Shown: positions 12,892 to 15,845 of the stretch, one piece after another | Layout: every line of letters starts with the position of its first letter | Numbering within the stretch: the first letter of the stretch is position 1 | Origin: Methanomassiliicoccaceae archaeon | GTDB lineage: Archaea; Thermoplasmatota; Thermoplasmata; Methanomassiliicoccales; Methanomethylophilaceae | Direction of reading: 5' to 3' | DNA length: 34,397 nucleotides | Assembly: GCA_003550345.1 (NCBI GenBank) | Contig: PUJZ01000080.1 | Location: forward strand, 1 to 34,397 | Made by a program: the position numbers and the translations under genes | Notes under the pieces: generated by a model | Seen by the model: the letters and a program-made list of their open reading frames with translations, nothing else | Told to the model about the DNA's origin: nothing | The model's database searches: none

Positions 12892-14232
12892 TCAGAGGCC
12901 GAGGTACCAGGTGGCGATGCTGAAGTAGACCAGCACACCCAGTATGTCCGCTATCGAGGTGACCAGGGGGCCGCTGGCGGTGGCGGGGTCGAAGCCTATC
13001 TTGGACGCCAGGTAGGGAAGGGTCATGCCCACCAGCGAACCGATGAGCACAACGCAGACCATGGTCATGGACACCACCACGGCGATCTCCATGCCGCCGC
13101 GGTAGAAGCCGAGCAGCGACACCGCCACAGCCATGGTAACGCCCAGCAGCAGGGCTATCTGCAGCTCCTTGGACAGCATGCCCGCCCAGTCACGCATCTT
13201 CACATCGCCGGTGGCCATCGCCCTGACGGTGAGGGTGGCGGACTGGGTTCCGGCGTTACCGCCGCTGTCGATGAGCAGTGGCAGGAAGAAGACCAAGGCA
13301 ACCGCCGCCTCGATGGTCTCCTCGTAGTAGGCGATGCCCGCGCCGGAGAATATGTTCATCCCCACCAGCACCAGGAGCCACGGTATGCGGGCCCGGTAGA
13401 GTACGTTGAGGCCCGCCTCCTTGATGTTGATCACCGGGGATTCGACGGTGTAGACGGCGCTGAGCTTCTGGAAGTCCTCGGTGGCCTCCTCCTCCGCCAG
13501 GTCCATAACGTCGTCGAAGGTGAGTGAGCCCACCAGGCGGTCCTCGCTGTCCAATACCGGCAGGGCCGGGAGGTCCCAGTCCATCATCAGGTCGCGGGCC
13601 CTCTCGCGGTCGTCGAGGGTGCGGACGAACACCTCGGCCATGACCGACAGTTCGGATATGGGTGTCTCAGGGGACTCCTTCAGCAGCGTCCCCAGCCGGA
13701 TATGGCCCTTGTACTTCCTCCCGGCATCGATGACGTACAGCATGTCCATCTCGTCGGCGCGCAGCGGCGACTGCCTGATGCGCTGCAGCATGTCGCCGAC
13801 GGTGAGGCCCTCCTTGCCGCTCAGGTAACGTGGGTTCATCGCCCTGCCGGCGCTGTCCTCGGGGAAGTTCAGCAGTATGTTGATGCATTCCCTGGACCGA
13901 GGGTCCAGCTTGTTCACCAAGCGCTTGGTCACTCTTGCCGGCAGCTCCTCGAAGAGCTTCGCCCGGTCGTCAAGGTCCAGGCTCTTGAAGTACTCCACAA
14001 CCTCGTCCTTGTCGAACTGGTTGACGAGCTCGGCCTGCTTCCCTACCGACAGAGCGTCGAAGAGCTCAACCGCCTGGTCCTTGGAGATCATGCGGAAGGC
14101 TATGACCATCTCAGCGCCCTCGAGCTCCTCGAAGGTCTCCAGCAGCGCTACGACGTCCAGGCTGTTCAGGTAGCGCTTGAGCTCCTCCAGCTCTCCCCTC
14201 TCAATTATCTCTTTCACATACTCCGAGGACAT
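12892..14232 (-). CDS. mgtE: Magnesium transporter MgtE
   Basis: A 446-residue Mg2+ channel/transporter with the standard order: N-terminal superhelical MgtE_N domain (about 1-130), two CBS domains (about 135-260, with PALPVLDSEDRLVGSLTFDD), a connecting helix, then five membrane helices (about 275-446). The pore signature GGNAGTQS and the late DPATASGPLVTSIAD are present. In the family, cytosolic Mg2+ binding at the N/CBS interface closes the pore, so the protein senses magnesium itself. Here the mRNA also carries an M-box riboswitch in a leader of about 250 nt, giving a second magnesium control. The ribosome site AGGAGG (14241-14246) has ideal spacing and is directly preceded by a GCGGG/CCCGC hairpin. 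Confidence 0.97.
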   Translation of the reverse strand: MSSEYVKEIIERGELEELKRYLNSLDVVALLETFEELEGAEMVIAFRMISKDQAVELFDALSVGKQAELVNQFDKDEVVEYFKSLDLDDRAKLFEELPARVTKRLVNKLDPRSRECINILLNFPEDSAGRAMNPRYLSGKEGLTVGDMLQRIRQSPLRADEMDMLYVIDAGRKYKGHIRLGTLLKESPETPISELSVMAEVFVRTLDDRERARDLMMDWDLPALPVLDSEDRLVGSLTFDDVMDLAEEEATEDFQKLSAVYTVESPVINIKEAGLNVLYRARIPWLLVLVGMNIFSGAGIAYYEETIEAAVALVFFLPLLIDSGGNAGTQSATLTVRAMATGDVKMRDWAGMLSKELQIALLLGVTMAVAVSLLGFYRGGMEIAVVVSMTMVCVVLIGSLVGMTLPYLASKIGFDPATASGPLVTSIADILGVLVYFSIATWYLGL

Positions 14233-14240
14233 ACGATCAT

Positions 14241-14259
14241 CCTCCTGCGGGAAGCCCGC
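14241..14259 (-). promoter_or_regulatory. Hairpin abutting the mgtE Shine-Dalgarno site
   Basis: On the minus strand GCGGG-CTT-CCCGC (14259 down to 14247) is followed without gap by AGGAGG (14246 down to 14241), then 8 bases to the ATG. Such a hairpin can influence ribosome access and is the likely end of the riboswitch expression platform. Confidence 0.5.
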
Positions 14260-14363
14260 TTTCTTAGATGACCGCCAGACCCCGTGGTCTAGAAATGTCT
14301 GATTTGCTCTCAGGCACCCCTAGTCGAGTTTTGGCTCCGCAGGACGTAGACCCTTAAGGGTCA

Positions 14364-14478
14364 GCTGCCTTAGGTAGAGCCTTAATCCGGCAATACCTGC
14401 TCTACCCGTTGGCATCTCTCGATGTTTCCGGGCAGCAGCCTTTGTTCCTGCGGTAACCTCACCTAACGAGGCCCTCCG
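14364..14478 (-). ncRNA. M-box (ykoK-type) magnesium riboswitch aptamer upstream of mgtE
   Basis: The minus strand carries the ordered conserved blocks of the M-box. GTTAGGTGAGG is at 14467-14457. GCTGCTGCCCGGAAA runs from 14439 to 14425. A CATC-GAGA-GATG tetraloop hairpin (14424-14413) follows inside CCCG...CGGG with the flanking GAAA and CCAA. AAGGCTCTACCTAAGG closes the motif at about 14382-14368. P1 pairs TTAGGT (14466-14461) with ACCTAA (14375-14370). These blocks match the B. subtilis mgtE leader, but the long P3-like segment between the CCAA/GGGT core and the GCTCTAC block is cut to about 20 nt. The element ends about 130 nt before mgtE. In bacteria this RNA binds several Mg2+ ions and turns off Mg2+ uptake genes. 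The class is known chiefly from bacteria; its presence here on an archaeal gene is unusual. Confidence 0.88.
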
Positions 14479-14505: not shown

Positions 14506-14514
14506 TTATATAAA
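14506..14514 (-). promoter_or_regulatory. TATA box of mgtE
   Basis: TTTATATAA on the minus strand. A start 25-28 bp downstream (about 14482-14485) would begin the transcript just ahead of the M-box P1 helix, giving a leader of about 250 nt. Confidence 0.65.
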
Positions 14515-14549: not shown

Positions 14550-15845
14550 CTAGACCAGCTCGTGGAAGCGGTAGGCCTCCTCGCCCTCGTTGAAGCAGTA
14601 GCGGATCTTGGTGAACCCGCGCTTCAGCTCCTTCACGTCCTCCTTCACCTTCGCCGGAGGGTCCTTGTTGCAGATGCGCGCGATGAGCTCCGCCACCTGC
14701 GTCATCTCGCTCTCCCTCATGCCGACGCGGGTGAGCTCCTGCACCCCCAGCCTGATCCCCGACGGCTTCACCGCAGAGGTGTCGCTGGGCAGCATGTTCT
14801 TGTTGCAGATTATGTTGGCGTCCTCCAGGTCCTGGGCCACCGTCTTGCCGCCGCCGTGGGCGGAGACGTCCACGGCGATGGCGTGGGAACGGGTGAAGCC
14901 GAGGTCGGGGCAGAGCACTTCGATGCCCCGCTCGTACAGGGCCTCGCCCAGGGCGCGCGAGTTCTTCACCGTCTGCGCCGCATAGTCCTTGGCGTAGACC
15001 TTCATCTCCGCCAGCGTCACGGCCAATGCTGCCATGGCGTGAAGGTGGTGGCTGCTGGTCACGCCGGGGAAGACCGCGCGGTGCAGCGCCTTCTCCTGCT
15101 CCTCATCGAGGTTGTCGCCCAGTAGCATGCCGTGGTTGGGGCCGGGGAATGTCTTGTGGGTGCTTGAGGACAGTATGTGGACTCCCTCGCGCAGCGGGTC
15201 CTGGAACTGGCCGCCGGCGATGAGGCCGAGGACATGGGCCGCGTCGTACCAGACGGTGCAGCCTATCTCGTCGAAGGTGTCCATGAGGTCCTTGAGCGGA
15301 GGGGGGAAGAGGAAGACCGAGAGGCCGAACTGGGCCACTTTCGGCCTGACGTCCTTGAGCACCTTGATGGTCTCGTCCACGTCCAGGTTCATGTCGCTCT
15401 CGTTGAAGGGGTAGTTGACCGACTCCACCGACCGGAGCCCGAAGGCGCCGAACTTGGCGGTGGATATGTGCGCGCCCTGCGCCAGCGCGCAGGTGGTTAT
15501 GATGTCGCCTGGCTCGGCGAAGGCGAAGAGGACGGCCATGTTCGCCACCGTCCCCGAGATGGGCCTGAGGTCGGCGAAGTTGCAGTCGAAGAGCTCGCGC
15601 GCCATCTCCATGGCCTTGAGCTCCACCTCGTCGACGTAGATGTTGCCCTGGTAGTACCGCTTTCCGGGGAGCCCCTCGGCGTAGCGGTCGGCGAAATCGG
15701 ATATCAGCATCTCCTTGGCCAACGGGCTCATCAGGTTCTCGGAGGCGATCATCGGTATGCTCTCCTCGAACCACTTGTTGTGGGCCCGCACCTTGTCCCG
15801 GATCCAAAGCGCTTCCTCGTTAATCATGGATGCTCGCTTTGCCAT
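14550..15845 (-). CDS. glyA: Serine hydroxymethyltransferase
   Basis: A 431-residue PLP enzyme interconverting serine and glycine with one-carbon transfer to a pterin (tetrahydromethanopterin in most methanogens, by family knowledge). The PLP lysine is Lys231 in SSSTHKTFPGPNHG. Other family segments are SENLMSP, GKRYYQGN and WYDAAHVLG. A TATA box TTAATAAAAG at 15854-15864 (minus) is only about 14 bp from the ATG at 15845, so transcription may start near 15832 and translation at the in-frame ATG at 15827 (MINEEALW), a nearly leaderless start. I keep 15845 as the outer limit. The stop is TAG; a read-through would add 16 residues before the next stop. Confidence 0.95.
   Translation of the reverse strand: MAKRASMINEEALWIRDKVRAHNKWFEESIPMIASENLMSPLAKEMLISDFADRYAEGLPGKRYYQGNIYVDEVELKAMEMARELFDCNFADLRPISGTVANMAVLFAFAEPGDIITTCALAQGAHISTAKFGAFGLRSVESVNYPFNESDMNLDVDETIKVLKDVRPKVAQFGLSVFLFPPPLKDLMDTFDEIGCTVWYDAAHVLGLIAGGQFQDPLREGVHILSSSTHKTFPGPNHGMLLGDNLDEEQEKALHRAVFPGVTSSHHLHAMAALAVTLAEMKVYAKDYAAQTVKNSRALGEALYERGIEVLCPDLGFTRSHAIAVDVSAHGGGKTVAQDLEDANIICNKNMLPSDTSAVKPSGIRLGVQELTRVGMRESEMTQVAELIARICNKDPPAKVKEDVKELKRGFTKIRYCFNEGEEAYRFHELV

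Follow-up and report, generated by a model that had tools for sequence, protein, structure and literature searches.

An M-box magnesium riboswitch stands in front of the magnesium transporter gene mgtE in an archaeal genome, and it very likely heads the mgtE transcript of this Methanomassiliicoccales-type methanogen, probably as a translational OFF switch at high Mg2+. The sequence analysed, here called the window, is a whole contig of 34,397 nucleotides from a 1.40-Mb MAG that is 89% complete with a contamination estimate of 0.01. An earlier note had proposed an M-box before an archaeal mgtE. The match to the covariance model, the covariation, the gene context and the conserved position all support this observation, which is stronger than the note supposed, though only partly confirmed in detail.

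The aptamer and its gene

The main features of the locus are as follows:

14506–14514, minus strand: archaeal TATA box TTTATATAA, read from the sequence, 28 nt upstream of the M-box
14309–14477, minus strand: M-box (ykoK leader) magnesium riboswitch aptamer, full length (RF00380)
12892–14232, minus strand: mgtE, magnesium transporter of 446 aa (PF03448, MgtE_N; PF00571, CBS; PF01769, MgtE)
14550–15845, minus strand: glyA, serine hydroxymethyltransferase (PF00464), the upstream neighbour

A search with RF00380 had been suggested, and cmscan of the whole window with Rfam 15 returned this family as the sole match above the gathering score, significant and full-length at 155.2 bits (gathering score 44; E 8.2e-36; model positions 1–169 of 169), with one base inserted and one position deleted. 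At 55 of the 60 strongly conserved positions the aptamer agrees with the consensus; 45 of the 46 consensus pairs are formed, and the remaining one is a C-U mismatch in P1. Judged from its sequence, the element is a canonical, full-length M-box and an ordinary member of its class. The sequence blocks quoted in the note were found in the window, in the stated order and on the minus strand, as was the downstream mgtE; three details needed correction. Because the match covers the whole model with all of its helices, the M-box is not compact, and the proposed compact variant lacking most of a long P3-like arm is ruled out. The extent had been given as 14364–14478, a left end that removes the 3′ strands of the outer helices, and GCTCTACCTAAGG, said to close P1, closes internal helices; the 3′ strand of P1 lies near 14313–14325.

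The aptamer is separated from the ATG of mgtE by 76 nt, which places it in the 5′ leader, and glyA ends 72 nt ahead of it, thus indicating that the riboswitch heads its own unit. Window MgtE passes the TIGR00400 equivalog for magnesium transporters with 357 bits (cut-off 232.75). The surroundings are archaeal, as had been noted: the window holds Orc1/Cdc6 and further archaeal-type genes, and the gene order is conserved in congeneric genomes. A genome of the same genus (Candidatus Methanomethylophilaceae archaeon isolate CSBr16_145, here G003; locus L060) shares the order cdc6, ttuA, mgtE, M-box, glyA, SIS-domain gene. The window's genome has no M-box besides this copy. It does encode a second MgtE-family transporter, of a tandem two-domain form common in the order (G000:C42:1446–2486), and a search of it for CorA found none.

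The TATA box of the window has a counterpart in G003, TTTTTATAAA, at the identical 28-nt spacing from the M-box there. As archaeal transcription starts about 25 nt downstream of the TATA box, transcripts would begin just ahead of the aptamer. Between the two genomes the aptamer is the best-conserved stretch of the region, with 89.9% identity, compared with 83.0% in glyA, 72.8% in mgtE, 72.1% in the linker and 69.8% in the promoter region; the difference from the last three indicates that the aptamer is under selection.

Covariation and distribution

Compensatory base changes across relatives, which the note had proposed to look for, were observed in 21 of the 46 pairs among 11 archaeal M-boxes, where 3–7 pairs changed on both sides when the partner was slid and 10.3 did so in shuffles. 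In the same plain MAFFT alignment, 92.2% of cells are standard pairs, compared with 29–40% with the partner slid. When 52 archaeal and bacterial copies were aligned to a model of the archaeal ones, 32 of 46 pairs changed on both sides. Ten of the 11 archaeal copies leave one P1 position (alignment A1, columns 8 and 178) unpaired, whereas it is paired in most bacterial ones. The C-U mismatch of the window, which we counted against our best explanation, falls at this position, and the unpaired position may be an archaeal signature.

Among 147 genomes that belong to the window's order, 6 carry an M-box, and the gene that follows it is mgtE, nrmT or mgtA. An even sample of the window's phylum contained 2 carriers among 390 genomes, the window's own included, and 4 of 295 sampled genomes carried five copies in a second archaeal phylum (that of Methanoregulaceae genome G481). 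The comparator phyla of a Syntrophomonas genome (“Firmicutes”) and a Desulfotignum genome (“Desulfobacterota”) gave 87 of 250 and 10 of 247 genomes, respectively. Filters in these large scans were strict and few candidates were scored in each genome, so that all of these counts are lower bounds.

All 11 archaeal M-boxes precede genes of magnesium-transporter families, in four contexts:

mgtE: the window, G003 and G513
CBS-mgtE: G487 and two copies in G706
Nramp-family gene (nrmT): G327, G469 and G470
P-type ATPase gene (mgtA): G430 and G761

Several of these loci have features of their own. G327 (L118:3286–6101) carries the M-box, the Nramp-family gene and then an MgtE_N-CBS gene, which is the layout of the bacterial nrmT operon, whereas this last gene is convergent in G469 and G470. 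In G706 (L128:4768–6712) the M-box, CBS-mgtE and a gene for a GDT1-family cation/proton antiporter are consecutive, and the second M-box/CBS-mgtE pair lies elsewhere in the genome. The M-box of G430 (L121:2521–2800) is followed by a 20-codon upstream ORF, a hairpin with T5 and the mgtA start. G487 carries its M-box in a single contig of 2,138,444 bases, seemingly a finished genome, with a thermosome-like gene nearby.

A search of 92 mgtE loci with the archaeal model was positive at only two, that of G003 (L060) and a Caldilineaceae locus, which implies that mgtE of the window kind is mostly without M-box control. The Caldilineaceae (Chloroflexota) copy (L077:141–313) has a terminator.

Origin and loss

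A tree of 91 MgtE proteins puts the window and G003 in a clade of ten rows that is exclusively archaeal (SH-aLRT 100); the M-box carriers in this clade are the window, G003 and G513 only. A tree of 52 M-boxes, built from 171 columns of an alignment fitted to the model of the archaeal copies, placed 10 of the 11 archaeal copies in one clade (bootstrap 98, SH-aLRT 98), apart from bacterial comparators that represent two phyla and one locus and were chosen by score. This clade spans both archaeal phyla and all four gene contexts. A single clade of all 11 was rejected (p 3e-5) because the G430 copy, which lies on a 3.6-kb contig, groups with a copy from Desulfobacterota; this could reflect either a separate transfer or mis-binning.

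In four congeners (G001, G002, G004 and G005) glyA adjoins ttuA, with neither mgtE nor M-box. The GlyA of G001 is 96% identical to that of the window, and the 349-nt gap between glyA and ttuA in G001 (L184:4025–4374) retains a short colinear remnant of the mgtE 3′ end (blastn E 5e-6; tblastn E 4e-4) and no recognisable M-box, thus indicating at least one loss of the mgtE/M-box unit in this genus.

The earlier note had offered either an ancestral archaeal M-box or transfer from bacteria together with mgtE. The all-archaeal MgtE clade and the single clade of 10 of 11 archaeal M-boxes argue against recent joint transfer, so that import of the window's mgtE and M-box from bacteria as a recent pair is not supported. 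A distribution as patchy as this one also speaks against simple vertical descent from an archaeal ancestor. The best fit is a spread among archaea in which the M-box was repeatedly lost and came to be associated with different transporters. That the archaeal M-box lineage is ancestral and disappeared many times, instead of having come from bacteria and then spread among archaea, seems to us rather unlikely. The clade that unites two phyla (98/98), the M-box in three of ten members of the all-archaeal MgtE clade and the loss directly visible in G001 would all be consistent with it, but frequencies of 2 in 390 and 4 in 295 genomes would demand very many losses, one RNA lineage precedes four different transporter arrangements, and the bacterial sampling consists of two phyla and one locus. 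It is highly improbable that the M-box is a non-functional passenger, a relic of recent transfer or a binning artefact, even though it is so patchy, is absent at the same locus in four congeners and was lost in G001 where an mgtE remnant was kept. Against a passenger or artefact stand the aptamer, which is better conserved between the window and G003 than the rest of the region, the order glyA, M-box-mgtE, ttuA, cdc6 and the equally spaced archaeal promoter in G003, a contamination estimate of 0.01 and a window MgtE within an all-archaeal clade.

Mechanism of control

The leader downstream of the aptamer contains several candidate elements, some of which overlap:

14289–14323, minus strand: hairpin A, CUAGGGGUG/CAUUUCUAG plus CUGA/UCAG (folding)
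14275–14292, minus strand: hairpin B, CUAGACC-ACGG-GGUCUGG (read from the sequence)
14233–14275, minus strand: hairpin S around the ribosome-binding site, GCGGUCAUCU/GGAUGAUCGU, inner stem GCGGG-CUU-CCCGC (folding)
14295–14299, minus strand: candidate anti-start-codon stretch GACAU, which could pair with AUGUC at 14228–14232
14241–14246, minus strand: Shine–Dalgarno (SD) sequence of mgtE, AGGAGG, 8 nt before the ATG

Hairpin A takes the 3′ strand of aptamer P1, so that the two are mutually exclusive, and in folding it is worth 10–15 kcal/mol, which is enough to serve as the alternative to P1; it is kept in G003 with one-sided changes. Hairpin B is exclusive with hairpin A and could be the alternative when P1 is formed. 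In G003 a core A-U pair of hairpin B is replaced by G-C and other pairs are lost, and in folding it is not the optimum. Hairpin S encloses the SD region and folds in both P1 states; two of its pairs are changed on both sides in G003 and one is broken, and the SD sequence is kept there as GGGAGG.

Intrinsic terminators, defined as a hairpin of −9 kcal/mol or lower followed by at least 6 T in 8, follow the M-box in 38 of 41 bacterial comparators but in 0 of 11 archaeal copies (p 6e-9). With a relaxed rule of 5 T in 8 the counts are 39 of 41 and 1 of 11 (p 4e-8); both p-values are optimistic because related sequences are not independent. The lack of intrinsic terminators in archaeal leaders indicates that regulation is probably at translation. 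For nine archaeal leaders we compared the cost of opening the SD sequence with the P1 3′ strand free or occupied, using 60 shuffled linkers each. SD access increased by 3.1–5.2 kcal/mol upon P1 opening in G327, G430, G706a, G487 and G761, with 0–5 of 60 shuffled linkers as high (top 0–8%). No such coupling was seen in the window (0.00 kcal/mol; 25 of 60 shuffles as high), G003 (−0.92), G706b (−0.89) or G513 (0.57), and the combined evidence over the nine leaders is modest (Fisher p 0.02). For the window leader itself, a simple model of SD access was rejected, as it had no effect in folding. We also rejected an SD-like sequence in the P1 3′ strand as an archaeal hallmark, since it occurs in 17 of 30 Firmicutes and 4 of 10 Desulfobacterota copies.

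As folding supports this for five of nine leaders and not for that of the window, the final switching step of the window leader is inferred. A mechanism is proposed in which the archaeal promoter directly upstream would start the mgtE transcript and the aptamer would bind Mg2+. At high intracellular Mg2+ the aptamer would compact and P1 would form, while at low Mg2+ the P1 3′ strand would pair with CAUUUCUAG in hairpin A. The choice between P1 and hairpin A would act on translation initiation of mgtE, which would be OFF at high Mg2+, presumably through occlusion of the start-codon region. GACAU, part of which is bound within hairpin A, might base-pair with the AUGUC of the start codon once P1 has formed; the counterpart in G003 is GUCAU/AUGAC, an A-U to U-A change. 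Opening of the AUG costs 2.0 kcal/mol more in the P1 state (0.7 in G003) when the 3′ end is cut at +6, and this extra cost disappears when more coding sequence is included; GACAU is a weak candidate for an anti-start-codon element.

The same M-box could instead cause premature transcription termination in the leader, through a weak U tract or through factor-dependent termination, for example of the FttA type; we consider this unlikely. It would agree with the predicted SD access of the window leader, which is independent of P1, and with precedent: bacterial M-boxes mostly control transcription (PMC4072509), and that of Mycobacterium tuberculosis links translation to Rho (PMC12810186). On the other hand, neither a hairpin with a T-run nor a long T tract occurs in the window leader, and none of the 11 archaeal leaders has a terminator under the strict rule. 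It is extremely improbable that the aptamer senses another divalent ion such as Mn2+. M-box selectivity does depend on binding and on cell levels, and in G706 a GDT1-family cation-transporter gene comes next after CBS-mgtE, but the window target belongs to the TIGR00400 equivalog of magnesium transporters and experiments with Clostridium M-box/NrmT pairs favoured Mg2+ (PMC4072509). Translational control by Mg2+ remains our preferred reading for the mgtE leader.

Significance and comparison with known systems

We know of few riboswitch classes reported in archaea. The M-box has been described as bacterial (PMC4072509), and a translational one was first reported in 2026, from M. tuberculosis (PMC12810186). 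According to a survey of Rfam 10, 99% of RNA families are confined to one domain of life (PMC3486863). Our search of the open-licence literature (M-box with methanogen or archaeal) found no reports of archaeal M-boxes; if they are indeed unreported, what is new is that they occur in two phyla, that there is an archaeal clade and that terminators are absent. There may well be an M-box lineage that archaea own, mobile among distant methanogens and attaching to mgtE, CBS-mgtE, nrmT and mgtA, with archaeal translation-initiation control replacing the bacterial terminator platform. A canonical M-box that has an archaeal promoter and lacks a terminator is a direct case for how a sensing RNA is re-wired between domains, and in methanogens it offers a testable metal-homeostasis switch. 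The isolate name CSBr16 suggests a soda-lake brine, where free Mg2+ is perhaps scarce, although this ecological link is speculation.

The closest known system is the mgtE M-box of Bacillus subtilis (RF00380), with which the window shares the whole aptamer architecture, nearly all conserved positions, the target gene family and a P1 3′ strand that has a competing downstream partner. The window differs in its archaeal host and promoter and in the lack of an intrinsic terminator after the aptamer, and the archaeal copies differ in their conserved unpaired P1 position. The nrmT M-box of Clostridium acetobutylicum (PMC4072509) is paralleled by three genomes of the window's order in which the M-box precedes an Nramp-family gene, and in G327 the MgtE_N-CBS gene comes next, as in bacterial nrmT operons (PMC4072509). 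Unlike that system, these copies are archaeal and have no terminator, and nrmT is not the window's own gene. Like the window, the M. tuberculosis pe20 M-box has no intrinsic-terminator platform; its initiation region is masked by an anti-SD, which the SD-like strand of the aptamer can capture (PMC12810186). The pe20 system differs from the window in its gene, in having a small upstream ORF as its target and in the unrelated sequence downstream of the aptamer. To our knowledge, Rho is not available in archaea. In anti-SD capture, the archaeal nrmT (G327), CBS-mgtE and mgtA leaders appear similar to pe20.
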